Assembly (NCBI GenBank): GCA_016212295.1
Contig: JACRGO010000158.1
Location: 1-24,672, forward strand
From: Nitrospinota bacterium
Lineage (GTDB): Bacteria > Nitrospinota > Nitrospinia > JACRGO01
Length of the DNA stretch: 24,672 bases
Reading direction: 5' to 3'
A model generated the notes under the pieces. The model had not been told where the DNA came from and did no database searches. It saw nothing but the letters and a program-made list of their open reading frames with translations. Numbering within the stretch: the stretch's first letter is position 1; the number at the start of each line of letters is the position of its first letter. Below, one piece after another: positions 9,119 to 24,538 of the stretch. A program made the translations under genes and the position numbers.

Positions 9119-9280
9119 ATGAGAATTTTAATCGTGGATGACGATTTTTTCAGCCGGGTGCTCCTGTCTATAATACTGGCGACTTAAAGAGGCATTCATG
9201 AAGGGTTGCTCCGCCTACATAGTGAAGCCCATAGAAAAGAATAAGCTCCTCAATTGAACTCAGAAAACTTGGAATTATCA
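9119..9280 (+). pseudogene. Response regulator remnant with its centre deleted
   Basis: The frame from 9119 encodes MRILIVDDDFFSRVLLSIIL, a textbook receiver N-terminus with its acidic residues, and hits a stop at 9185-9187. Directly after it, in another frame, 9189-9254 encodes EAFMKGCSAYIVKPIEKNKL, the C-terminal end of a CheY-like domain with its conserved Lys-Pro. In a third frame from about 9260 RKLGIIR follows, the usual tail of this subfamily. The middle with the phosphoacceptor Asp and Thr/Ser is absent. The gene has therefore lost perhaps half its length and carries at least two frameshifts. It cannot make a working receiver. Boundaries are approximate. Confidence 0.75.
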
Positions 9281-10006
9281 GGGGAGCAAGAGAACACAGT
9301 CACCGGACGGTGGCTTTATATCCAGGACAGGGTAATACCTTGGGTGGACGGGCGGACTGTCCGCTTGTCCGTGATTACCGACATCACCCAACGCAAAATG
9401 GTGGAGAAAGAATTGAACGGCGCCAAGGAAAGGGCCGAGGAGGCCACAAGACTCAAGGACAAATTCCTTTCCCTGGTGGCCCACGACCTTCGTTCCCCAT
9501 TTGTCTGGATCATGGGCTTTTTGAAAAAAATGATCAATGACCAGGCCCATCCCCTTCATGAAACACACAGGGGCCTGGTCAGGAGAATCCTTGACGGGGG
9601 GGAGAGCATGGTCAATATGATCGACAGCCTCCTTAAAATCAGCAGGCTCCAGTCAGGAAAGATCGCCTTGGCCCTTCAGTTCATGGAGATGAACATGCCA
9701 ATCCGCTCCGTCTTGCACAATTTTCTTCCATTGGCCGAGAAAAAAGGCGTTGTCCTGGCTGCCATTGAAAAGGCCACGCCCCACCTGATAATCACCGATC
9801 TCTTCATGCCTGTCATGGACGGCTTTGAGCTCATGAGGCGCGTCCATCGGAATCCAAGGACCAAATCGATTCCGATAATTGTGATTACCAGCGACGCGGA
9901 AATGGAGACAAGGGAAAAGGCGGTGCGTTTGGGGGCGGATGATTTTATCCTTAAGACCGCCGGCGTGGAGGAATTCCTCCCAAGGGTCCTGAAATTCGTG
10001 GCGTAA
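9254..10006 (+). pseudogene. Hybrid histidine kinase remnant lacking the ATPase domain
   Basis: The 250-residue frame (TTG start; no ribosome binding site seen) reads through pieces of a hybrid kinase. Residues about 15-50 are the end of a PAS/PAC domain (VDGRTVRLSVITDITQRK). Residues 65-150 are a HisKA dimerisation domain with phosphoacceptor H77 in LVAHDLRSPF. Near residue 169 the frame jumps to the late part of a receiver (D182 in IITDLFMPVMDGFEL, S213, K234 in DDFILKTAG). The whole HATPase domain with its N, G1 and G2 boxes and the receiver's first strand with its acidic pair are missing. The internal join is in frame, so a protein could be made, but it could not autophosphorylate. Its start overlaps the preceding remnant. 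It converges with the zinc-finger gene, six bases apart. Confidence 0.75.
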
Positions 10007-10012
10007 CACAAT

Positions 10013-10195
10013 CTACATCTCGGTCCCGGCAAAGTCATCTTCGTCCCTGTCATCAAAGGGACTTCTTTTCCCCAGGCAATAGTCGCACTTCAAGGTTTCC
10101 TCTTCCATTTCGTAATGGGCTGCGCAGACCTCGGAGCCGCAGACCTCGCATCTGAATTCCCCGCCTGCCTCGACCCTGCAAACCACGCACTTCAT
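10013..10195 (-). CDS. 60-residue cysteine-rich zinc-finger-like protein
   Basis: The protein has eight potential zinc ligands: C3-x2-C6-x9-C16-x2-C19-x4-C24-x2-H27-x9-C37-x2-C40. The first six have the spacing and the FRCEVCGSEVCAAHY style of AN1- or B-box-like treble-clef fingers; the last pair would complete a second site. The tail is strongly acidic (SPFDDRDEDDFAGTEM). It starts six bases after the stop of the RodZ-like gene and is probably co-transcribed with it. The ligand pattern is too regular for a chance frame. The function is unknown; a protein- or nucleic-acid-binding adaptor is possible. Confidence 0.75.
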   Translation of the reverse strand: MKCVVCRVEAGGEFRCEVCGSEVCAAHYEMEEETLKCDYCLGKRSPFDDRDEDDFAGTEM

Positions 10196-10201
10196 TAATC
10201 A

Positions 10202-11122
10202 TTATTCCTTGGGCTTTAAAATGATGAAATCATGAATGACCACTTCCTTGCTAGGCCAGGATATTTCTTTCCCGTTTAAAGACAGCTTTACACCTTTGGA
10301 ATTGCCTGTTGAAATGGAAAAATCCTTCGTGGCCTTGAAAGTGGCGGTATCCCCGGCCCTGAGGATGAGGTTCCTCTTCATGGTTTCTCCGTCTATCTTC
10401 ACTGATAACCAGGAATCGGTGCTGGCCGCCAATTTAAGCAGTAGTTCCCCTGCCACTGGAACTTCCAAGGGGTTCTTTGGAGGCAGTGGTACAGAATCCT
10501 CGGCGGCAGGCTTTTTCCCTGCGCTGGCATCGACCAGTTCCTCTTTTTTATCAGGCTTCCCGGGCGCTACGCCAGCGGACGCTGCTTCGTCTTTTGCCTC
10601 ACCTTCTTCTATCACCGCTTTTTGGGCCGGTCTCTCGGAAAGAACTACTGGTCCGCTTTCTTTTAAATCCGGGGTTTCAGTGGAGTCAGGCGCGGAAATA
10701 GGCATACCCTCACCTTGCTCCTGGTGGACATTGCGGCTTCGCTTGGAGTATTCGCTGAAATAATAACTCACCCCTACCACCACCAGGAATGCCACGAACG
10801 CCAGCCAGAATTTATTGGGCTTCACGCCTGATTCAACCGGGATGGCTTCATACTTTATTTCGGTCTCAGCGACCTTTTCCGGCTCCTTTTTCTCGAAGCG
10901 GTCATGATAAGTTTCAAGAACCTCCGTTGGATCCAGGCCAATGTACTGGGCATAGGTCTTTATGAACCCCTTCACAAAAATCTCACCAGGGAGTTTTTTA
11001 AAATCCTCATGCTCTATGGCCAGCAGAAAACGCTTGTTGATATGCGTGGCTTTGGCGATCTCTTCCAGGGTGGCGCCCTTGGCCTCCCGGTTTGTTTTTA
11101 AATATTGTCCGATGGATTCCAT
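10202..11122 (-). CDS. RodZ-like helix-turn-helix membrane protein
   Basis: The 306-residue protein resembles RodZ, the membrane protein that links MreB to the cell-wall elongation machinery. Residues 1 to about 72 are the HTH_25 domain (MESIGQYLKTNREAKGATLE, then IAKATHINKRFLLAIEHEDF and GEIFVKGFIKTYAQYIGLDP). A transmembrane helix lies at 105-122 (FWLAFVAFLVVVGVSYYF). A low-complexity Pro/Glu/Lys/Ser periplasmic linker follows (about 130-225). A C-terminal DUF4115-like beta domain (LLLKLAASTDSWLSVKIDGE...LSLNGKEI) completes it. AGGG lies just before the ATG. The zinc-finger gene follows six bases downstream. No mreB or cell-shape genes are adjacent, so the symbol is withheld. Confidence 0.88.
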   Translation of the reverse strand: MESIGQYLKTNREAKGATLEEIAKATHINKRFLLAIEHEDFKKLPGEIFVKGFIKTYAQYIGLDPTEVLETYHDRFEKKEPEKVAETEIKYEAIPVESGVKPNKFWLAFVAFLVVVGVSYYFSEYSKRSRNVHQEQGEGMPISAPDSTETPDLKESGPVVLSERPAQKAVIEEGEAKDEAASAGVAPGKPDKKEELVDASAGKKPAAEDSVPLPPKNPLEVPVAGELLLKLAASTDSWLSVKIDGETMKRNLILRAGDTATFKATKDFSISTGNSKGVKLSLNGKEISWPSKEVVIHDFIILKPKE

Positions 11123-11526
11123 ATCCCTGCTTTTTATAAGATTTTTAGTTTTTCACAACAAGAAACACGGCAGGCTGAAAAAATTTTCCCTATGCGATTT
11201 GCGAGGAAAGCTCCGTCCAAGGCGTGAAGTTATATAGTTAATTTATCCTAAACAGGCATTAAATAGCAATATAGCATAGGAAATCCCATTTTAAATTTTT
11301 AAAAATCAAATAGATATCTGAAAGTTGATTGTTTTAATGGAACATAGCTTCGCAAATTGATTAATGAAAAACCTGGAACCACGAATTAACAAATTACAAT
11401 TACTGAATGTCCAAAAACAATTCCATTTTCTTTTGTGTTCTTTGTAATTTTGGTTATTGGGATTTATTTGTTATTTGACAATTGAGATTTGAAATTTTAT
11501 CCGCGCTAATCCGCGTTATCCGCGTT
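11123..11526. other. Intergenic region with repeat
   Basis: No gene is seen. It carries the promoter region of the RodZ-like gene at its left end, AT-rich sequence in the middle, the dispersed repeat copy B at 11384-11499, and a triple ATCCGCG(C/T)TAATCCGCGTT-type direct repeat at 11499-11526 that runs up to the stop of the next gene. Confidence 0.5.
11384..11499. repeat. Dispersed hairpin repeat, copy B
   Basis: From AATTACAATTACTGAATGTCC to GACAATTGAGATTTGAAATT this copy follows copy A (about 512-622) almost base for base, with a few substitutions and small indels in the loop. The left AAATGAC tandem part of copy A is missing. Two near-identical copies 11 kb apart show a mobile or recently amplified intergenic element. 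Confidence 0.7.
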
Positions 11527-12870
11527 CTATTTTTTCAGCTCGCCGAAGGCGATAAGTTCCGGCCTGCTCCCAAGCACATCCATTGCCCTTGCCGCCAGGG
11601 CGATGGCCATGAGAGGGGCGACCTGGAGCAGCGAACGCTGGACGGTCATGCTGTTGGCCAGGAATTCAAAATTCACGGTAAAGGCGTAAACGGCCAAAAC
11701 CATTGCGAGGCATCCCCAGGCCAGGGGCCAAAGGGACTTCGAGGCTTCGCCGCTGGTCCTCCAAAAAATCAGCGGGACCGCTAAAATCCACAGCATGCCG
11801 AATCCGCTGAAGGAAAAAAACTCGGCTGGAAACATGGCGAATGCCTCAGGATGAAACTCCAATATCCTATCAGCGGGGTTGGGGTTGAGCCCAAGTCCCG
11901 TCCCTGCCTTGAATATAAACCACGGGGAGAGAGGGAGAAAAACCCCAATTGAAAAAATTGCCAAGGGCCGCGCCGCCCTTGCCCAAAAAATCGTTGCCAA
12001 AAAAAGGACTGGCAAATAGAGCGCCAGGGGATCATTCTTTGACCACGCGGCTGCCGCCATCATGAACCCGCTCAGCGCAAGGCTTTTCTCGTCCTCCCGA
12101 ACCCTCCATCGCTCCCAAAACAGGACCGACAGCGCAAGGAAAACCGCCACTGTCAAATCCCCCAATCCGGCGGAGAGATGAATCCCCACCAAGGGGAGAG
12201 AGGCTGTCAGATACACGGCAATGGCCGCGCCTGAGCGTCCGCAAGCCCGTTTCATGAACCGGTAAACCAGGGCGATGAAAGAGATAAAATTAATTAAGTC
12301 CACACCCAGGGCCCAGGGGTCTTTCCATTCGCCCGCGATACGGCACAAAAGCGCCTTGAGCAGGGGAAGGTGCAAGGGATAGTGTATCTTTTCGCCACCC
12401 AGAGTCCACGCGGCCTCGTCTCCAAATCCAAGCGTCCCCTCAACGAAAAAATATCTTGCCCTGAGATGCCAGAAGTGAAAGGAATCCCAATATTGAGTTG
12501 GAAGCCAAAGCACACAGCCAAGGGCATAAACAAGTTGAAATGCTATGAGTATCCATACCAGGGCCATGAACCCTTTTGACTGCAAGGAACCATTGTAGTA
12601 TGGCGCATCAGATCCTTCGCTGGCTGATTCCAAGGGAGAGGAGGACTTTAAAAATCGGCCGCCCGCCCAGAAAAATATGCCCATTGCCAGCGCAAGCGCA
12701 ATGGACCAGCCCCCCAGCCATCCCCACCAAAACAGGGAGAAGGTCACAAGGACGCTCCCTATCAGCCAGCCGAGAGCAGCCGACTCCAATGGCTCCATTT
12801 TCAATCCTATGAGCCTTAGGACTCCGTAACCAAGGGCGGTCATGGCTATTAATCCCAGCCAGGGGCTCAT
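11527..12870 (-). CDS. Polytopic membrane protein, GT-C glycosyltransferase-like
   Basis: A 447-residue protein with about ten hydrophobic segments. The layout resembles GT-C (PMT/ArnT-like) glycosyltransferases that use polyprenyl-phosphate sugars. After the first helices comes an aromatic-rich loop YWDSFHFWHLRARYF with a candidate catalytic Asp at 129, then HYPLHLPLLKALL, a helix pair, and AAAWSKNDPLALYLPV, which fits the GT-C core. A long soluble C-terminal domain is absent. Its ATG overlaps the stop of the upstream gene by four bases, so the two probably act together, perhaps in cell-surface polysaccharide or glycan assembly. The family call rests on topology and weak motifs. Confidence 0.7.
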   Translation of the reverse strand: MSPWLGLIAMTALGYGVLRLIGLKMEPLESAALGWLIGSVLVTFSLFWWGWLGGWSIALALAMGIFFWAGGRFLKSSSPLESASEGSDAPYYNGSLQSKGFMALVWILIAFQLVYALGCVLWLPTQYWDSFHFWHLRARYFFVEGTLGFGDEAAWTLGGEKIHYPLHLPLLKALLCRIAGEWKDPWALGVDLINFISFIALVYRFMKRACGRSGAAIAVYLTASLPLVGIHLSAGLGDLTVAVFLALSVLFWERWRVREDEKSLALSGFMMAAAAWSKNDPLALYLPVLFLATIFWARAARPLAIFSIGVFLPLSPWFIFKAGTGLGLNPNPADRILEFHPEAFAMFPAEFFSFSGFGMLWILAVPLIFWRTSGEASKSLWPLAWGCLAMVLAVYAFTVNFEFLANSMTVQRSLLQVAPLMAIALAARAMDVLGSRPELIAFGELKK

Positions 12871-14690: not shown

Positions 14691-16441
14691 ATGCAAAAAA
14701 AAATGACAATAAGCGAGGCCCAAACCAGAAGAGAAATCATTGATAAGCGGCTTAAAGTTGCCGGTTGGGATGTCAGGGACCCGTCTCAGGTAACCCAGGA
14801 ACTTGATATTTGGGTTGGTTTGCCTCAAGAGATCAGAGAACTGCAAACGCCTTATCAGGGGCATCTTTTCGCGGACTACGCCCTTCTTTCAAAAAACGGC
14901 AAACCCATTGCCGTTGTGGAAGCCAAGAAGACGTCCGTTGACGCGGAAATAGGAAAGGAACAGGCGCGCAACTACGCCGAAAATATCCAAAAAATGAACG
15001 GCGGATTTATTGCGCCACCTATCCCGCCATGCTCAACCTGATTCAGCAGGAGGATTGTCCCCTCAATCCCCATTACTTTGATATGATCGTGGCCGATGAA
15101 AGCCACCGGTCCATTTATAATGTGTACAAAAATATCTTTGAATATTTCGATGCCATACAATTGGGACTCACCGCAACGCCCACGGATGTGATAGACCACA
15201 ACACCTTTCAACTCTTTAACTGCGAAGACGGCCTGCCCACCTTTGCTTATTCCTACGAGGAAGCGATTACCAACACCCCTCCCTATCTATCCGACTTTGA
15301 AGTCCTCCAGTTACGAACAAGATTCCAGCAGGAAGGAATCAACAGTGAAACCATAGCCGAAGCGGAGAAAAACAGGCTGCGCCAGGATGGAGAAGACCCG
15401 GATGAGATAAACTTTGAGGGGACGGAACTGGAAAAGAAAGTTACCAACAAGGGAACTAACGCCCTCATTGTGCGAGAGTTCATGGAAGAATGCATTAAGG
15501 ATCCAAACGGCGTTGTGCCTGGGAAAGCCGTTTTCTTCGCCATTTCTAAAAAACACGCCTACCGGTTATGCGAAATCTTTAATGCCCTGTATCCCGAATA
15601 TAAGGGCCGTCTCGCGGAGGTCATTATTTCGGACGTTAAAGGCGTTCATGGAAAAGGGGGAATCCTTGACCGTTTCAAAACCATGGATATGCCGAGAATC
15701 GCCATCAGCGTGGATATGCTGGGCACAGGAATTGACGTGCGGGAAATCGTCAATCTGGTCTTTGCCAAGCCGGTCTTTTCCTACACGAAATTCTGGCAGA
15801 TGATCGGTCGCGGCACCCGCGTGCTGGACCCCGACAACATTAAACCATGGTGTCCAGAAAAGGAGAAGTTTTTGATCATGGACTGCTGGGAGAATTTTGA
15901 ATTTTTTAAAATGAAGCCCAGGGGCAAGGAACCCAAGGGGGTTCGCCCGCTTCCGGTTAGGCTGTTTGAAGCCCGGATTGATAAACTCCATGTGGCGCAA
16001 GGAAAAAAAGACGAGGCGATTCAAAAGAAAACCATCACAGCCATCAGAAAGGACATCGCCTCCCTGCCTCAAAATTCCGTGGTTATCCTGGATAATCAGG
16101 AGTGCATGGCAAAGACATCGGATGACAACTTTTGGATAAGTGTAACGGAAGAAAAGTTGGATTACCTGAGAATGCAGGTTGCTCCACTCATGCGCGTATT
16201 TTCCAATTCGGATTTTAAGGCCATGCGTTTTGAACTGGACGGCATCGAGGCCCAAACCGCCCGGCTGTCCGGCGATGAGGAACGATATGTGGCTCTCAAG
16301 GAAAGCATGGTGGAAAAGAAGGACCTGATCCATCCCCCCTTTACCCAACTTCACCCGGAAGGCGTTCGCGGCATCTTCCCGCCTCATGAAATAGAGGAAA
16401 TCCTCGGTTTGGTTCAAGAAATAGGGGTACAAGATAGTTAA
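14691..16441 (+). pseudogene. hsdR: Type I restriction subunit HsdR, internally deleted and frameshifted
   Basis: HsdR is the ATP-dependent translocase and nuclease of type I restriction enzymes. The N-terminal frame (14691-15008) keeps the PD-(D/E)xK nuclease core: D62 in FADYAL, E77 and K79 in VVEAKKT. It runs to NIQKMNGGF. At about 15005-15008 the sequence jumps, in another frame, to IYCATYPAMLNLIQ, which in intact relatives lies after the Walker A region. The second frame (to 16441) has motif II (VADESH), LGLTATP, the second RecA domain with ISVDMLGTGIDVREI, and QMIGRGTRV (motif VI). The ATP-binding motif I and surroundings, probably some 200 residues, are missing and the join is out of frame. 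The gene is thus a pseudogene unless the join is an assembly error. A separate protein from the ATG at 15029 could not hydrolyse ATP. Confidence 0.9.
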
Positions 16442-16495
16442 ATCGGGTAATATTTTGTTGACATTACCCGATTTAGATGCTACCTTACCCGAATA
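16440..16495 (+). promoter_or_regulatory. Promoter with inverted-repeat operator upstream of fic
   Basis: AAATCGGGTAAT (16440-16451) and ATTACCCGATTT (16463-16474) are perfect 12-base inverted repeats with an 11-base spacer. A third half-site TTACCCGA follows at 16486-16493. A perfect -35 TTGACA (16458-16463) lies across the spacer and right arm; 17 bases later TACCTT (16481-16486) is a weak -10 touching the third half-site. A protein bound here would block the promoter. The winged-helix C-terminus of the Fic protein itself is a candidate repressor, which is inference. Confidence 0.6.
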
Positions 16496-16512
16496 ATCAT
16501 GAAGAGGATTCC

Positions 16513-17559
16513 GTGCATTCTTTAACCCTTCCATATATAAAAAAACTGGCCTTCGACGCCGAGGCCGTTTCCGCCCTAAAGTCCATCGGGGAGTGCAAAG
16601 GGAAACAGACCCTCTTTTTCACTCAAACCCCGGAGATATTGAACACCCTCAAAAAGGTCTCCATCGTGGAGTCCATCGAATCTTCCAACCGCCTGGAAGG
16701 GATCACCGCCCCCCACAAACGGATCGAAGGGATCGTTTTAAAGTCCACCCAGCCCCGAAACCGGTCGGAGCAGGAAATCGCCGGATACCGCGACGCCCTG
16801 AACCTCATCCATGAATCCGCCGAACACATGCCCTTTTCCGAAAATGTCATACTACAACTTCATTCCATGATATACCGCTATCTGCCCTCCGAGGGAGGTT
16901 TCTGGAAAAAAACGGACAACAGGATCGTGGATAAGAACCCCGACGGGAGCATCAAACGGGTCCGCTTCGAACCCACCTCCGCCTTGGCCACGCCGGGGCA
17001 GATGGCGAAACTGCTGGAGTATTATCATTCGGCCCGGGATCATGAGAATAGGGAGCCATTGGTGGTCATTCCCCTCGCCGTTCTGGATTTTTTGTGCATC
17101 CATCCCTTTACCGACGGCAATGGCCGCGTGGCCCGGCTTTTGACCCTCCTTTTGCTCTATCATTCGGGCTACGAGGTGGGGAGGTTTATCAGCCTGGAGC
17201 GCATCTTCGAGGAATCGCGGGAGACGTATTACGAGAGCCTGGAGAAGAGTTCCGTGGGCTGGCATGAGGCCGGGCACGACGTCACGCCCTGGATGGCCTA
17301 TTTCTGGGGCGTGCTCCTCAGGGCCTATAAGGAATTTGAAGATCGCGTCGGGAATATCCGCGCGAGCAAGGGGTCCAAGACCGAGCAGATTCGAAAGGCC
17401 GTGGAGCGGAAGACAGGGCTGTTTTCCATCTCCGACATCGAACGGGAATGTCCCGGAACCAGCAGGGACATGGTAAGGCACATCCTCCGGCAACTCCGCG
17501 ATGAAGGCGCCATTTTCAGTACCGGCCAGGGCCGGAACGCGAAATGGCAAAGGAGATAA
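16513..17559 (+). CDS. Fic-family AMP-transferase (class II) with C-terminal winged helix
   Basis: Fic enzymes transfer AMP from ATP to Ser, Thr or Tyr of target proteins. The active-site motif HPFTDGNGRVAR is complete (residues 197-208). The autoinhibitory motif SxxxE(G) occurs N-terminally (SNRLEG, S58 to G63), which makes this a class II Fic whose activity is held off by its own helix. The last 65 residues (SKTEQIRKAVERK...TSRDMVRHILRQLRDEGAIF) form a winged helix. I chose the GTG at 16513, which has GAGG at 16504-16507, over an in-frame ATG at 16477 that lies within the operator and upstream of the likely transcript start. It lies between hsdR and hsdM, a placement I recall for Fic genes in other type I loci. 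Confidence 0.9.
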   Translation: MHSLTLPYIKKLAFDAEAVSALKSIGECKGKQTLFFTQTPEILNTLKKVSIVESIESSNRLEGITAPHKRIEGIVLKSTQPRNRSEQEIAGYRDALNLIHESAEHMPFSENVILQLHSMIYRYLPSEGGFWKKTDNRIVDKNPDGSIKRVRFEPTSALATPGQMAKLLEYYHSARDHENREPLVVIPLAVLDFLCIHPFTDGNGRVARLLTLLLLYHSGYEVGRFISLERIFEESRETYYESLEKSSVGWHEAGHDVTPWMAYFWGVLLRAYKEFEDRVGNIRASKGSKTEQIRKAVERKTGLFSISDIERECPGTSRDMVRHILRQLRDEGAIFSTGQGRNAKWQRR

Positions 17560-17662: not shown

Positions 17663-19216
17663 ATGCTAAGCCCCAAAATGAAATCCCTCATCAACCGGCT
17701 CTGGGACAATTTCTGGAGCGGGGGGATCGCCAATCCCCTCACGGCTATTGAACAGCTCTCCTACCTCCTCTTCATGCGCCGCCTTGATGAAATGGATATG
17801 AAACTCCAAAAAGACGCCGAATGGACGAGTGAGACATACGCCTCCATTTTTAAAGGCGCCTTCACCTTGCCCGGCACGGGGGAAAAAATCGACAAAAAGA
17901 CCCTTCGCTGGAGCCATTTCAAGCAGTTGGAAGGGGGAGAAATGCTTACCCACGTTCAAACCAGAGTCTTCCCCTTCATAAAACAGATCAACCACAAAAA
18001 CAGCGCCTTTACCCAATACATGGCGGACGCGGTCTTTATCATTCCCAAACCCTCTCTCCTGGTGGAGGCGGTGAGCATTATCGACGCCCTGTACGCGGAG
18101 ATTGAAAAAGAGACCCAGGCGGGACAGAACTTTCACGATACCCAGGGGGATATGTACGAATTCCTGCTTTCCGAGATATCCACCTCCGGGAAGAACGGAC
18201 AGTTCCGCACGCCGCGCCATGTCATCAAGTTGATGTGCGAACTGGTCAGCCCGAAACTTGGCGAGACCATCGGGGACCCTGCCTGCGGCACGGGCGGATT
18301 CCTCCTCGGGGCCTATCACCATATCCTGGCCGCCCATACCAGCAAGAACCATAGAACCGTGGATGAGGACGGGTTTGAACATGGGTTCGGGGACAAGCTC
18401 ACGGACAAGCGTTTATGGGCCGCGCTTCGGGAAAACACCTTTTTCGGGTATGACTTCGACACCACCATGGTGCGGATCGGACTCATGAACCTCCTCCTTC
18501 ACGGGATCACTCAACCCAACATCCGGCGAAACGACACCCTGTCCAAGAAATATAATGAAGACGATCACTATGACGTTATCCTCGCCAATCCACCTTTTAA
18601 AGGAAGCATCGATAAAGGGGACATCAACGAAAACCTTTCGCTCAAGACCACCAAGACCGAGCTTCTCTTTGTAAACCGCCTGATGAATTCCCTGAAGATC
18701 GGCGGACGCGCCGCCGTCATCGTGCCGGACGGCGTCCTCTTCGGTTCCTCCAACGCGCATAAGGACTTAAGAAAGATGCTCCTGGAAAGGTGCGAACTCC
18801 AGGGCGTGGTCTCCATGCCGTCGGGAGTGTTCAAGCCCTACGCGGGGGTAAGCACGGCCATTCTGGTCTTCGTCAAAGGAGGCGAAACCAAACGGGTCTG
18901 GTTTTACGACATGCAGGCGGACGGGCGTTCCCTGGACGATAAGCGGAAGAGGATCGAGGCAAATGACCTGCCGGATATTGTAAAAACGTGGAATAGTAGG
19001 GGCGATTTGAAAGCCGCTCAAAATGACAGGAAGAAGAAAAATTTCTTTGTCCCGGTCCAGGAAATCATTGATAATAATTATGACCTCAGCATTAATCGCT
19101 ATAAGGAGATTGATTATGCGCCTCAAAAATACGATAAGCCGGAGGTGATTTTGGGGAGGATTGAGGGGTTGGAGAAAGAGATTATAGCAAGCATAAAAAC
19201 TTTGAGGATGAAATGA
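17663..19216 (+). CDS. hsdM: Type I DNA methyltransferase subunit HsdM
   Basis: N6-adenine methyltransferase that, with HsdS, modifies the host recognition sequence. The 517-residue length is typical. The N-terminal helical domain (FWSGGIANPLTAIEQLSYLL) is followed by the catalytic domain with SAM motif I DPACGTGGF (about 205-213) and catalytic motif IV NPPF (309-312), then the C-terminal tail that contacts HsdS. AAGGA lies seven bases before the ATG. Local GC is high (40 of 60 bases at 18241-18300), unlike the genes that follow. The stop overlaps the hsdS start by four bases. The gene looks intact although hsdR is not. Confidence 0.96.
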   Translation: MLSPKMKSLINRLWDNFWSGGIANPLTAIEQLSYLLFMRRLDEMDMKLQKDAEWTSETYASIFKGAFTLPGTGEKIDKKTLRWSHFKQLEGGEMLTHVQTRVFPFIKQINHKNSAFTQYMADAVFIIPKPSLLVEAVSIIDALYAEIEKETQAGQNFHDTQGDMYEFLLSEISTSGKNGQFRTPRHVIKLMCELVSPKLGETIGDPACGTGGFLLGAYHHILAAHTSKNHRTVDEDGFEHGFGDKLTDKRLWAALRENTFFGYDFDTTMVRIGLMNLLLHGITQPNIRRNDTLSKKYNEDDHYDVILANPPFKGSIDKGDINENLSLKTTKTELLFVNRLMNSLKIGGRAAVIVPDGVLFGSSNAHKDLRKMLLERCELQGVVSMPSGVFKPYAGVSTAILVFVKGGETKRVWFYDMQADGRSLDDKRKRIEANDLPDIVKTWNSRGDLKAAQNDRKKKNFFVPVQEIIDNNYDLSINRYKEIDYAPQKYDKPEVILGRIEGLEKEIIASIKTLRMK

Positions 19217-20370
19217 AGTTAAAAGAAGTCTGTAAAATAATCGGAGGGAATCCTGCTCCAAAAGAGGGCTTTAGTTCTTCTGCGGAAGCCTTGCCATTCG
19301 TGAAAATGAAGGATTTAGGCAAAGCGCATTTAACAAATAATTTGGTGGAAATTGAAACAAGAATCGATCCTAATTTTGGAAGAAAAAAAAATATGAGGAT
19401 CATAAAAAAAGGTTCAGTGTTATTACCAAGAAGCGGTTCAGTTGCATTAAATCATAGAGCAATTCTTGGTCAAGACTCTTTTATGGTAAGTCATATTTGT
19501 GCATTAGAAGTGATATCAAAAGAATTGTTTAATGAGTATTTATATTATTTTCTTTGTACAAAGCGGTTAGATAATATCACTAAAAAAACTACTGGCTTAG
19601 ATGCTATCACTTTTGAAGATATTGGAAATATAAAGATAAACTTTCCATCTTTATCTGAGCAAAAAAAAATAGTCCAAATCCTCGACACCGCCGACAGCCT
19701 TCGCCAAAAACGCAAGGAACAACTCAAACTCATTGACGACTACCTCAAATCCGTCTTCCTCGAAATGTTCGGCGATCCGGTGAGGAATGAAAAGGGGTGG
19801 AAGGTGTTTAAGATGTTAGATATTTGTTCGAAAGTTACGGATGGCACACATGATAAACCTAAAAGATTAGATTCTGGAGTGAAATTTATTACAGGAAAAC
19901 ACATAAAACCTTTTAAGATTGATTATGAAAACTCTGATTATGTTAGTCGAAGTGATCATGAAGAAATTTATCGAAGATGCAATCCAGAGAAAGGAGATGT
20001 TCTGTATACCAATATAGGTGTAAATGTGGGAACAGCAGCGCTAAATACCGCGGAATATCCCTTTAGCATGAAAAACGTTGCTTTGCTGAAATTAACAAAA
20101 GAAAAGGTTGCTCCACGATATATAGAGTCATTCCTTAATTATGAATTTGTGAGGAACGATGTACTTAGAAAAATATCTTTGGGTGGAGCACAACAATTTA
20201 TTGGGCTTCAGGATATAAAAAAAATAGATATTCCCATACCCTCTTTAGATATACAAAACAAATTCGTTTCCATTGTCGAACAAGTCGAACAAACAAAACA
20301 AAAAATGCGCGCATCCTTAGCCGAAATGGACAATCACTTTAATGCCCTAATGCAAAGGTATTTCGGATGA
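19213..20370 (+). CDS. hsdS: Type I specificity subunit HsdS
   Basis: The DNA-recognition subunit, 385 residues in the usual TRD1 - conserved helix - TRD2 - conserved helix layout. TRD1 spans about 1-150. The central helix (SEQKKIVQILDTADSLRQKR through LIDDYLKSVFLEMFGDP) spans about 150-190. TRD2 begins with WKVFKMLDICSKVTDGTHDK and runs to about 350. The closing helix is KFVSIVEQVEQTKQKMRASL. Base composition is mosaic: 13 of 60 GC at 19501-19560 in TRD1, but 32 of 60 at 19681-19740 in the central helix, a sign of TRD exchange. It overlaps both hsdM and the SIR2 gene by four bases. The protein appears intact, so modification is probably active. Confidence 0.94.
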   Translation: MKLKEVCKIIGGNPAPKEGFSSSAEALPFVKMKDLGKAHLTNNLVEIETRIDPNFGRKKNMRIIKKGSVLLPRSGSVALNHRAILGQDSFMVSHICALEVISKELFNEYLYYFLCTKRLDNITKKTTGLDAITFEDIGNIKINFPSLSEQKKIVQILDTADSLRQKRKEQLKLIDDYLKSVFLEMFGDPVRNEKGWKVFKMLDICSKVTDGTHDKPKRLDSGVKFITGKHIKPFKIDYENSDYVSRSDHEEIYRRCNPEKGDVLYTNIGVNVGTAALNTAEYPFSMKNVALLKLTKEKVAPRYIESFLNYEFVRNDVLRKISLGGAQQFIGLQDIKKIDIPIPSLDIQNKFVSIVEQVEQTKQKMRASLAEMDNHFNALMQRYFG

Positions 20371-21287
20371 ACATTAATTTAGTTCCTGATATTTATCATT
20401 ATCCACATATCTTTAATAGTCATAAAGATGAAAAATTGGTCGTTTTTATTGGAGCCGGTGTGCCTGCTCTTTGGGGGTGTAGTTTGTGGAAAAATATGGC
20501 TTCTGCTTTAGTCCATAGGTGTTATGAGCATGGTTTTCTCGATTATTGGGCTACCAACAAATTGTTGCATAAATATGCAGATTCACCTCGAAAGCTTATA
20601 ACCATTACAAAAAACATTTTAGACAGTAAGTATTTGCCGGAGTTAGAAAAAACATTGGGAGTTTTAGAGGACAGGAAGAAAAAAATGCCCAATATTTTTA
20701 GAAACTTATTTTCGTTAAACGCAGTTTTTATAACGACCAATATTGATTCCAATTTTGATGAATTGTTTGACAAAAATAAAATTCATACAGATCCAAATAA
20801 ATTTTTTCAGAGCGATTTCCAAGTCAAGAACCTTTTTCACTTACATGGGGTTTTGAGCGAGCCTAAGAGCCTTGTGTTAACCATGAATGAATATGTTGAT
20901 CGTTACCAAAATACTAACTTTACCCGATTCTTAGAAAACATATTTTTTGATGAAAAATACTGTATTTTATTTATCGGCTATGGTGTGGATGAGCTGGAAA
21001 TTATTGATTTTATGGCTGAAAAATATAGCAAAGGAGAAAAATCTTTAACAAAATATTTAAATCGATTTTACATTCTTTTGCCTTTTTTTAAAAATGAAGA
21101 AACTTTGTTTAAATATGAAAGGTTATATTTCAGTCAGATAAATATGACTCCTATCCCATATGCCATTGATGAAAAAGGATACGATCAACTCTATTATGTA
21201 TTAGATGTTTGGAAAGATAAATTGACTAAGCCTGAGCAAGGCGACCCTTTTTATAACTTTAATCAAATTATTGATAATAACCTATGA
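20367..21287 (+). CDS. SIR2-like NADase-type defence effector
   Basis: The 306-residue protein has a SIR2-like Rossmann fold of the kind used by antiphage systems (DSR, Thoeris ThsA, SIR2-HerA, SIR2-pAgo) to destroy NAD+. Visible are the nucleotide loop VVFIGAGVPALWGCSLW (25-41), TTNID with N125 and D127, the catalytic HLHG with H160, and the late glycine motif LFIGYGVDE (201-209). The Ser usual after GAGV is Pro33 here. No zinc-binding cysteine pairs are present, so deacetylase function is unlikely. It overlaps hsdS and the 1084-residue gene by four bases each. GC is low (18 of 60 at 20641-20700), indicating different ancestry from hsdM. The NADase role is inferred from the family. Confidence 0.85.
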   Translation: MNINLVPDIYHYPHIFNSHKDEKLVVFIGAGVPALWGCSLWKNMASALVHRCYEHGFLDYWATNKLLHKYADSPRKLITITKNILDSKYLPELEKTLGVLEDRKKKMPNIFRNLFSLNAVFITTNIDSNFDELFDKNKIHTDPNKFFQSDFQVKNLFHLHGVLSEPKSLVLTMNEYVDRYQNTNFTRFLENIFFDEKYCILFIGYGVDELEIIDFMAEKYSKGEKSLTKYLNRFYILLPFFKNEETLFKYERLYFSQINMTPIPYAIDEKGYDQLYYVLDVWKDKLTKPEQGDPFYNFNQIIDNNL

Positions 21288-24200
21288 GTGTATTCACCCC
21301 AGAACAACAACAAGTATTGTACCTGATAAAATCAGATAATGATCATGCACGATATTTTTGGAGTAGAGCAAAAAATTTAAAATGGTTTTATTCACTGAGA
21401 GATAATGACTACTTTTGCCCAAAGCAAATTGAACCCGATAAAAACGGCAACGCTCAATTTTGGAACGTCCTTGACTATCTCGAACGAGTATCCGAACAGG
21501 TTAAAGATTACCAAGAATACGGCAAAGAATTGCTATATATTATAAATGATACCGTCAGCTATTCGAACCAACTATTGAGTGATGGGAAAAAAGGAATAAA
21601 CAACTACCATATATGGTGGTATTTTGTAAAAATCATCCACAACCTTCCACCTGAAGTCATCACTGAAGATTTGCCCATTGACGACTGGAATAAAAACGGT
21701 AAAATTCACCATGGCTTTCGCTCCCTGCTCCTGGCCATGATGGACCCATCCTTGGGGAGCAATTGGAATGTCACGGATATCACCAGAAAACTTTTGCCCA
21801 AATTTCTTGAGGATGCCTACACCGCCGAATACGCGGAAACCATCATTGACGTGATTACCCGGATTAAGGAAGGCACAACAGAAACTTCTCTTTCAGGCCG
21901 AGAGGAGGTTGTGCTTTTATGGAAACCATATTGGATATTGGATGCCTTTGAAAGGAACCATGAAAAAATCGCTAAGAGATGTTCTTCAAAAATTATTTTC
22001 AATATCGCGGACAAGTTAAAAAATGCCTTGTCTTATAAACAGCAATGCTATGCCGTGCCCATTGAAATAGATAATCATAGGTATCAAATAAAAGTCCTTA
22101 GAGTCCCTATTAAAGAAAAGGACGCGGAGACAACCTTTAAGGAAGAGGAGTATCAGTGCATTATTGGGCAATTCACGGCGGATCAAATTGAAAACACTGA
22201 TAACGAAAAGGAACCTTTTTCCTTGCACTATACGGATGCCGCAATTATTCTCGGAGATTTTAAATTTTCCGCGGACAGTAGGAATGCTTTCATCTCTGAG
22301 ATAAAAGATAAGTTGCCTCCAGAGTTAAACCTGGCCGGGACAGAAGTTATTAATAAAAGAATCAACAATTTATATGATGAGTTGAATTCCGATTATTGCT
22401 ACATATGGCTCAAATCCTTGGCTGACGGCGGGAGAAAACACCTCAGCCGGGCCGAGGAAGTCTTGATCATAATTTTGCGGGATGTCTTATTGTCCAAATG
22501 CAAATTGGATTCAGCGGCGGGAAAGGAGATATTAGAAAAATTCCTGACAGGGCAATATCCCTTTCCTACCTTCAGGCGATTTGTTTTGTTGTGCATGGAT
22601 AAATTTTGGAATGAATATAAAAGTTTGTTGACAAAATTCATTAAAGTCGTTCCCAAGGCCCTGGATGAATCGGACTATAAAGTGGAACTCTTTGACCTTT
22701 TAAAAAATCATCATCAGGATTTTGAGCCTTCCATTATTGAAAAGCTGAAAGAACTCATTTATAACGTCCCCCGGTATTATCAGGAAAAAGGTGAAAGAAT
22801 GATCGCTTACTGGAAATATCAGTGGCTCGCCGCACTCAAAGACCATGCCTATTTTAAAGACGCCTATGAAGAGGCCAGGGAAAAGGTGGAGCCTATGGAT
22901 GGAAAAGATTATGCGCCGGACCGGGAAACCATTAAAGGGGGGGTGGTTACCCATTATTCTCCCATATCCAAGGAAGAGTTGCTCAAAAAACCCATTCCTG
23001 AAATAGTAAGGTATTTAAAGGAATTCAAAGGGGCGGATTTCTGGGAAAGGAGTTTTGAGGGGAAACCCAGTAAAGAAGGGCTGGCGGAAACCTTGCAAAG
23101 CGCGGTGAAGGAAGATCCCCAAAAATTTGCGGATGAATTAAAAGCGTTTCTTGATACAAGCCCCTATTATTTACACCGTATTTTTAGGGCCTTTAAGGAT
23201 GCGTGGAATGAAGGCAAAGAGATTGATTGGGAAAAAATATTTGATTTCTGCGTCACCTATTTTGACCAGGATAAGGAAAAACTCCTCAATGAATCCTTAA
23301 AAGCGCAGGGAGAAGACAGCGGTGAAGGAAAATATATCTGGATTGTGGAAGATATTGTTGACCTGATCGCCGACGGCTCCAAAGATGACAAGCGAGCCTT
23401 TGAACCGGAATATTTTCCTAAAGCCGAGAAAATATTTGAACTTGTTTATCTTTTGCTTAAAGGAGAACACCATCCCGATACCCAACGAGACGCCCTGAAT
23501 TACGCGTTAAATACAACCCTTGGCCGGACGGTGATGTCCTATGTCTCCTTTTCCTTAAGGGTGGCCAGGGCAACCGGGAAAAAAGAACCGGATTGGGGCA
23601 AGAACAAGTTTGAACGCTTCTTTGAAAAAGGGATTGAAACCACCATCTGGTTAGGTAGTTATTTGCCGCAAATAAATTATTTGGATGAAAGCTATGCCCG
23701 GGAAAAAATCAATGCCTTTGCAGATAAAACAACGGATGATTTTGAGTGGCGGATGTTCATGGAAGGATATCTCTTTGGGGGGGCAATATACGAGAACATC
23801 TATCACTTAATGAGGGGAAACTATGAAAAAGCACTTGAAAGCTCCGGTTTTGAGGATCGCGAAGATGAAAGGCTGGCCGGGCATATTTCCTTCGGGCACC
23901 TCTATTATGGAGAGGCTTTGGAAGCAACCAATGCGGATGGGAAACCCAGCCTCTTCCGGAAAATGCTGAATGAGGCAAAATCGGTCAACAGGCGGAACCG
24001 ATGGACCAACGTGGTTATTTTTTTCTGGAAGAAGTCGGGAAGAAAGAGCGATACCGAAAAGGAAGAGGAGCGGCTGAAGGAGGTAAAAGAGAAAGCGCTT
24101 GCCTTTTGGCAATGGACGTATGAAGAGCAAGAATTTGTACAGGACCAGTTAGGAGATCAATATCTTGATTTTCTCGGAGAACTTTCAAGATTAACGGTTT

Positions 24201-24538
24201 TTCCGGATAAAATTGGTGAAAAAGAGGCGAATTGGCTTTTGTTGTGCGCCCCTCACATTGACAGGCACCATAACTCGGATTTTTTTATTGAGTATCTGGC
24301 AATGTTTACGGATGAAGAGAGCGTCAAACGGACGGGAAAAATATTTCTGAAAGCCCTGGAAGGCTGTACCCCTGCCTTCAGACAGGAAGAGATTCAACTC
24401 TTGATGGACCGGATATATAAACTCGCCGGAAAAAATTCCGACGCGGAACTGAAAAAGGACGCCGATGAAATTTGCAACACTTACGGCCGCAGGGGCGTGC
24501 ATTTTCTGAAGGAGCTGTTTCACAGGTATAATTTATAG
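21284..24538 (+). CDS. 1084-residue helical protein, probable SIR2 partner or sensor
   Basis: I do not recognise a named family with confidence. The protein is predicted mostly alpha-helical throughout, rich in Lys, Glu, Trp and Tyr, with no signal peptide, no membrane segment, no Walker A motif and no obvious nuclease motif. Residues about 17-75 (ARYFWSRAKNLKWFYSLRDN, CPKQIEPD, FWNVLDYLERVSEQ) recall a segment in large STAND-type and SIR2-linked defence proteins. The C-terminal FFWKKSGRKSD and KALAFWQWTYEE region recalls their helical-repeat sensor ends; a DUF4020-like relation is possible, from memory. It is coupled to the SIR2 gene by an ATGA overlap, so it is the likely activator or target sensor. 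GC rises along it, from 19 of 60 at 21361-21420 to 31 of 60 at 24061-24120. Confidence 0.8.
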   Translation: MSVFTPEQQQVLYLIKSDNDHARYFWSRAKNLKWFYSLRDNDYFCPKQIEPDKNGNAQFWNVLDYLERVSEQVKDYQEYGKELLYIINDTVSYSNQLLSDGKKGINNYHIWWYFVKIIHNLPPEVITEDLPIDDWNKNGKIHHGFRSLLLAMMDPSLGSNWNVTDITRKLLPKFLEDAYTAEYAETIIDVITRIKEGTTETSLSGREEVVLLWKPYWILDAFERNHEKIAKRCSSKIIFNIADKLKNALSYKQQCYAVPIEIDNHRYQIKVLRVPIKEKDAETTFKEEEYQCIIGQFTADQIENTDNEKEPFSLHYTDAAIILGDFKFSADSRNAFISEIKDKLPPELNLAGTEVINKRINNLYDELNSDYCYIWLKSLADGGRKHLSRAEEVLIIILRDVLLSKCKLDSAAGKEILEKFLTGQYPFPTFRRFVLLCMDKFWNEYKSLLTKFIKVVPKALDESDYKVELFDLLKNHHQDFEPSIIEKLKELIYNVPRYYQEKGERMIAYWKYQWLAALKDHAYFKDAYEEAREKVEPMDGKDYAPDRETIKGGVVTHYSPISKEELLKKPIPEIVRYLKEFKGADFWERSFEGKPSKEGLAETLQSAVKEDPQKFADELKAFLDTSPYYLHRIFRAFKDAWNEGKEIDWEKIFDFCVTYFDQDKEKLLNESLKAQGEDSGEGKYIWIVEDIVDLIADGSKDDKRAFEPEYFPKAEKIFELVYLLLKGEHHPDTQRDALNYALNTTLGRTVMSYVSFSLRVARATGKKEPDWGKNKFERFFEKGIETTIWLGSYLPQINYLDESYAREKINAFADKTTDDFEWRMFMEGYLFGGAIYENIYHLMRGNYEKALESSGFEDREDERLAGHISFGHLYYGEALEATNADGKPSLFRKMLNEAKSVNRRNRWTNVVIFFWKKSGRKSDTEKEEERLKEVKEKALAFWQWTYEEQEFVQDQLGDQYLDFLGELSRLTVFPDKIGEKEANWLLLCAPHIDRHHNSDFFIEYLAMFTDEESVKRTGKIFLKALEGCTPAFRQEEIQLLMDRIYKLAGKNSDAELKKDADEICNTYGRRGVHFLKELFHRYNL

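Follow-up and report, generated by a model that had tools for sequence, protein, structure and literature searches.

A predicted two-gene Dsr1-type SIR2 module behind hsdM and hsdS in a type I modification operon of a Nitrospinota bacterium

What is the function of a SIR2 gene that is built, together with the gene of a 1084-residue protein, into the end of a type I modification operon? The question is raised by contig JACRGO010000158.1 of a Nitrospinota bacterium (assembly GCA_016212295.1), whose whole 24,672-nt stretch is referred to as the window. Here hsdM, hsdS, the SIR2 gene and the gene of the 1084-residue protein, designated LARGE, follow one another; the loci of relatives bear L-numbers. 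Sequence comparison suggests that SIR2 and LARGE form an anti-phage module of the Dsr1 type, split into two genes, which has been added to the modification operon and is presumably co-expressed with it.

The PADLOC profile of Dsr1, PDLC04166 (1227 positions), matched the SIR2 gene product over model positions 7-283 (E 1.3e-77) and LARGE over positions 515-1225 (E 2.5e-103), and every relative tested matched it as well. Other members cover more of the model (positions 311-1213 for the Vibrio partner and 291-1225 for L040), and the whole of LARGE therefore corresponds to the Dsr1 region lying after SIR2. At locus L033, SIR2 and LARGE are fused in a single gene. Because one profile covers both genes in order and a fused SIR2-LARGE exists, the pair is, judging by its sequence, a Dsr1-type system split in two genes. 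As in Dsr1, a long helical region comes after a SIR2 NADase region; unlike in Dsr1, these parts lie in two overlapping genes instead of one polypeptide, sit in a type I operon and fall outside the NCBIfam Dsr1 equivalog NF041818. The split gene pair recurs in at least ten relatives. A split caused by a sequencing error is ruled out by its presence in many loci, and the Dsr1 match likewise rules out that LARGE is an orphan. Genes split in this way are easy to overlook or to annotate wrongly as a 'SIR2 family protein' plus a 'hypothetical protein'; the Vibrio pair, which lies on a plasmid, carries this annotation.

An earlier sequence-only reading of this DNA had described LARGE as a mostly helical protein without a P-loop, serving as the separate sensor or regulator of a split DSR-like or Avs5-like protein. 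No Walker A motif was found in LARGE and its predicted model is almost all helix, in agreement with this description. The DSR-like architecture is likewise upheld by the profile spanning both genes and by the L033 fusion, and LARGE probably acts as a sensor that regulates its SIR2 partner. The Avs5 (SIR2-STAND) alternative is ruled out, since the Pfam scan of LARGE gave no family above its cut-off, hence neither a STAND nor a P-loop nucleoside triphosphatase (NTPase), and since the Walker A search was negative. AlphaFold2 produced a confident helical solenoid (mean predicted local distance difference test score, pLDDT, 83.8; predicted template modelling score, pTM, 0.50), whose neighbours in a fold search were generic HEAT/ARM solenoids (PP2A subunit A, importins and CAND1; best Z 12.5, root-mean-square deviation, rmsd, 4.6, 298 residues aligned). 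These matches may reflect a shared helical-repeat arrangement only, without specific meaning. DSR2 was absent among the fold matches listed, an absence that carries no weight, and no match was obtained when solved structures, DSR2 included, were searched by sequence for relatives of LARGE. DSR2 of Bacillus subtilis, which has a HEAT-type sensor region (PMC11263360), resembles the window pair in its catalytic residues and, according to the predicted model, in its helical HEAT-type sensor part, but shows no sequence match to LARGE and is not split in two genes. A haloarchaeal plasmid protein (L007, 5955-10046) has an AAA ATPase as its N-terminal half and weakly resembles LARGE in its C-terminal half.

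The SIR2 protein appears to be an NADase effector with intact catalytic residues. N125 and H160, invariant in 13 family sequences, align with N133 and H171 of DSR2, the catalytic asparagine and histidine of SIR2 NADase effectors. When the family profile was compared with solved structures, DSR2 was the best match (E 2e-22, aligned over DSR2 residues 28-310), followed by FAM118B and ThsA. The GAGxS motif of most sirtuins reads GAGVP in the window, and the L037 protein likewise has a proline at this position.

The same earlier reading had taken hsdM, hsdS, SIR2 and LARGE for one translationally coupled unit. The four-base overlaps of hsdM/hsdS (19213-19216), hsdS/SIR2 (20367-20370) and SIR2/LARGE (21284-21287), all on the forward strand, are as it reported, and the four-gene unit is borne out. 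The ATGA overlap of four bases is a common operon junction in bacteria. Taken alone, the overlap shows no more than co-transcription and, probably, coupled translation. The overlaps become informative because they recur in relatives: the SIR2/LARGE overlap was also found in L003, L034, L035, L037, L040, L041 and L078, and the hsdS/SIR2 overlap in L040 and L078.

Based on these features, we propose that the pair acts as an autonomous second line of defence. LARGE, as a helical solenoid, would directly sense a phage-derived trigger and activate its SIR2 partner, which would then destroy NAD+ and stop the infection. The Hsd methylase would mark the host DNA, enabling restriction where hsdR is intact, and the SIR2 module would form a second layer against phages that escape modification or restriction. 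We infer the formation of a SIR2-LARGE complex, the depletion of NAD+, the trigger and the layering with methylation, and favour this mechanism as a whole with moderate confidence. Free-standing SIR2-LARGE copies in L006 and L031 argue for a module able to function in the absence of Hsd. Several points weigh against the proposal, which draws on sequence and predicted structure. NF041818, which describes validated DSR1 proteins, matched the SIR2 half only, at 17 bits against a cut-off of 1400 (E 9e-4), and did not match LARGE; the pair therefore belongs to a distant Dsr1 branch, and the trigger of known DSR proteins is not transferable to LARGE. Adjacency alone is no proof of cooperation, as defence genes cluster anyway. 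Finally, DSR1 has been reported to stop phage while the cells survive (review PMC10952713), which makes the label 'abortive' uncertain.

Table 1. Features of the window, with positions on the forward strand, and gene orders of related type I loci (R, M and S: hsdR, hsdM and hsdS)
Feature or locus	Positions	Strand	Description
hsdR pseudogene, 5' fragment	14691..15041	+	N-terminal nuclease region, then frameshifted tail; 86% identity with L078 HsdR residues 1-104
hsdR pseudogene, 3' fragment	15029..16441	+	DEAH-box helicase part, second deletion, authentic C terminus; 82% identity with L078 HsdR 261-690, rejoining at 894
fic gene	16477..17559	+	SoFic-like AMPylase family; between hsdR remnant and hsdM; Pfam Fic E 8e-16, PADLOC SoFic E 3e-41
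hsdM	17663..19216	+	517 aa; type I N6-adenine methyltransferase subunit; Pfam N6_Mtase (E 5e-64) and HsdM_N; 83% identity with L078 HsdM
hsdS	19213..20370	+	385 aa; specificity subunit with two target-recognition domains; Methylase_S in two stretches, E 2e-29
SIR2 gene	20367..21287	+	306 aa; predicted SIR2-type NADase effector; SIR2_2 E 1e-15; Dsr1 profile PDLC04166, first part
LARGE	21284..24538	+	1084 aa; Dsr1-type C-terminal protein, predicted alpha-solenoid (HEAT-like); Dsr1 profile PDLC04166, last part
L003			type I locus; M-S-SIR2-LARGE
L005			type I locus; R-M-S-SIR2-LARGE
L035			type I locus; M-S-x-R-y-SIR2-LARGE
L040			type I locus; R..M-S-SIR2-LARGE
L078			type I locus; R-M-S-SIR2-LARGE
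L064			type I locus; R-M-S-fused LARGE
L004			type I locus, contig edge; R-fused LARGE

Besides the window and the archaeal L007, scans of public genomes yielded about 25 loci that encode a LARGE-type protein. No relatives were found in phages and viral contigs. Nineteen loci, window included, had enough sequence around the gene to be informative, and in 15 of them a DNA-modification system lies beside the LARGE-type gene. Eight carry type I genes (the window and the seven loci of Table 1), and an intact hsdR-hsdM-hsdS-SIR2-LARGE order was observed in a closely related operon of an Omnitrophota genome. A PLD-helicase with an Eco57I-type methylase, a gene pair that recurs next to LARGE-type genes, is found in L033, L037, L069 and L070; a DpnII-type system adjoins the LARGE-like gene of L068; a type III Mod-Res pair lies about 3 kb from the LARGE gene of L036; and the genome of L005 contains another SIR2-LARGE copy (L034, 5239-19698), which is located downstream of DISARM-like genes encoding an SNF2 helicase, an MZB-domain protein and a large helicase. 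No modification system was found nearby in the other four (L006, L031, L041 and L066). As the LARGE-like members of L066, L068, L069 and L070 are distant, the core neighbourhood count rests on the closer loci. The association on which the sequence-only reading had made its claim depend held for SIR2, which lies directly upstream in nearly all close homologues, and in part for hsdMS, with type I genes in eight of the 19 loci and a different modification system in seven others.

These counts bear on a rival explanation, in which SIR2-LARGE and the modification genes, as defence modules independent of each other, share one transcription unit of a defence island, with co-expression as their only link. 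It is consistent with the general clustering of defence genes and with the difference in GC content between hsdM (0.52) and SIR2 (0.31). However, it implies a mixed set of neighbours, whereas a modification system adjoins the LARGE-type gene in 15 of the 19 loci, and the four-base coupling to hsdS is repeated in three loci, window included. We consider mere hitchhiking quite improbable. A count in an Omnitrophota sample speaks for the proposed second-line module. From about 129 matches to HsdM_N in its 368 genomes, and with an approximate mean genome size, a random gene would be expected within 10 kb downstream of hsdM with a chance of about 0.2%, compared with the 5 out of 9 observed; even at an island-level chance of 10%, which is an assumption, 5 out of 9 has a probability of 9e-4.

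The identities between loci indicate how often the module and the restriction genes came together. HsdM proteins of the type I loci are 26-35% identical for most pairs (51% for L003 and L040), and those of other type I families are 28-34% identical to that of the window. LARGE proteins reach 50-71% identity in pairs with low HsdM identity, as for L035 and L005 (71% for LARGE, 29% for HsdM), and those of L035, L005 and L003 are 50-53% identical to LARGE of the window. Between the window and L078 the relation is reversed, with 83% for HsdM and 82-86% for HsdR but only 52% for LARGE, while L078 HsdM is only 33% identical to that of L003. The LARGE tree joins L078 and L003 as sisters (100/100), within a clade (99/99) that excludes the window. 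Because the HsdM identities disagree with the LARGE identities and the LARGE tree, module and restriction genes must have been combined several times, and sequence comparison places the module with at least four type I families. The partner exchange between modules seen in these identities also suits the hitchhiking explanation.

The sequence-only reading had passed over an hsdR pseudogene (14691-16441) and a fic gene upstream of hsdM. With the intact 931-residue HsdR of L078 as reference, a first deletion removed residues 102-260, including the Walker A motif GTGKT at 189, and broke the frame at the junction; a second removed 204 residues (690-893). A functional hsdR beside the window operon is ruled out by these two deletions. 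An assembly artefact is possible, although two separate deletions make it less likely. HsdM and HsdS are both intact, with the motifs DPACGTG and NPPF preserved in HsdM, and the reading frames of hsdM, hsdS, SIR2 and LARGE are all open. Compared with L078, identity at second codon positions is 93% for M, 80% for SIR2 and 74% for LARGE, versus 42%, 44% and 36% at third positions, a pattern of retained purifying selection on the three genes. The window has probably lost restriction and kept methylation together with the SIR2 module.

Such a state could mean that SIR2 has replaced the nuclease: with hsdR dead, the M-S complex would find unmethylated foreign DNA and recruit or activate LARGE-SIR2, and NAD+ loss would take the place of cleavage. 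The double deletion in hsdR beside four open genes fits this idea, as do the other hsdR-like matches in the genome, which are partial or contain a stop. It is nevertheless highly improbable, as hsdR is intact beside the module in L078, L005, L035 and L040, free-standing copies of the module exist, and the window assembly is about 90% complete, so that an HsdR acting in trans is possible.

Effectors other than SIR2 were also found ahead of LARGE. In L036 (359-5466 and 8565-11849), a TIR-LARGE fusion lies about 3 kb downstream of the type III Mod-Res pair, and in L064, L004 and L065 a helical N-terminal domain is fused ahead of LARGE. The model of the L064-type domain (mean pLDDT 75.6) retrieved mostly HEPN or HEPN-like folds in the top rows of a fold search (Z 7.0-7.5, 111-127 residues aligned, rmsd 3.4-4.2), scores too low to be safe where helical bundles are compared, and there is no shared Rx4-6H motif of the canonical form; 'HEPN-like' is therefore a lead from predicted structure. 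The L064 fused protein is encoded directly behind hsdS, in a type I system 63-68% identical to that of the window, which indicates that this slot can hold different effectors. In L064 itself (9229-11543), hsdM is interrupted by an inserted 226-residue open reading frame on the opposite strand.

The occupied slot recalls PrrC of EcoprrI, a toxic effector whose gene shares an operon with hsdMS, lying within or after these genes (PMC3874165), and which is an exact precedent for another explanation (also PMC3506569): the Hsd complex would keep SIR2-LARGE inactive until anti-restriction proteins or a disturbance of M-S release it, so that the module watches over the modification system. The guard concept is established (PMC12707154). 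The recurrent association with modification systems of different kinds, the coupled position straight after hsdS and an effector encoded within the hsd operon, as in L078, speak for such a role, and the predicted nearest-to-HEPN fold in the L064 slot parallels the PrrC nuclease domain, itself regarded as HEPN (PMC3506569). Free-standing SIR2-LARGE copies, by contrast, have no Hsd to guard, the partners (types I, II and III and DISARM-like) are too diverse for one conserved contact, and the window has kept the module although its hsdR decayed. PrrC, moreover, cleaves tRNA as an anticodon nuclease and has an ABC NTPase, whereas Pfam gives only SIR2 in the window pair, whose separate solenoid partner has no family above its cut-off and no NTPase. 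On balance we regard guarding of Hsd as possible but unlikely, and keep autonomous sensing by LARGE as the preferred reading. A wider version is tentative and rather doubtful: Dsr1-type solenoids would be a general guard module for DNA-modification defences (types I, II and III, PLD-helicase/Eco57I and DISARM-like) with interchangeable effectors (SIR2, TIR and a probable HEPN), sensing failure or inhibition of modification or restriction and responding by NAD+ loss or another shutdown. Having lost its hsdR, the window would then represent a guard and a methylase persisting without restriction.

DarTG2 is a toxin-antitoxin pair that modifies DNA. In the RRDM island of enteropathogenic Escherichia coli (EPEC), this module of ADP-ribose chemistry lies between hsdS and hsdR, inside a type I operon (PMC12255303), but its toxin is of another kind than a SIR2 NADase with a solenoid partner. 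The available text of Makarova et al. 2012 (PMC3506569) lists Sir2 domains among the predicted toxins or suicide effectors linked to type I loci, and names there no Dsr1-type partner, split-Dsr1 reading or other modification systems. The earlier statement that no such system had been described is consequently too strong: Sir2 genes in type I loci, PrrC, DarTG2 and the guard concept are already known. In the open-access literature searched, no paper was found on SIR2 with a Dsr1-type partner in an hsd operon; within it, the identification of the pair as a split Dsr1, its recurrent attachment to modification systems of several kinds, the exchange of effectors in one slot and the natural version without hsdR appear to be new. 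PrrC has long served as the standard example of a suicide effector within a restriction system, and the window module points to a second, NAD-based kind, joined to unrelated modification systems several times and with swappable effectors. The hypothesis of immunity-suicide coupling becomes directly testable with a compact gene set, which raises the questions of whether SIR2-LARGE depends on HsdMS and whether anti-restriction proteins trigger it.

The remaining observations concern neighbouring genes and remnants. The fic gene of the window is probably a bystander, as L078 has none at the corresponding position; the contig of L041 also carries a fic-like gene upstream. Two loci from Omnitrophota (L005, 2784-3494, and L002, 737-1432) have a RadC-like gene immediately upstream of the operon. 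A 183-188-residue protein without family is paired with a distant LARGE-like protein in L068 (5736-11103) and L070 (311-10979), behind the DpnII-type system and the PLD-helicase/Eco57I methylase, respectively. Finally, relics of about the last 29 codons of LARGE occur in L032 (2785-2871, reverse strand), where the relic reads DADEICNTYGLRGEHFLKELFNRYN-stop, and in L079 (10557-10643, forward strand). They are traces of lost LARGE copies, one of them in a genome that belongs to the same genus as the window.

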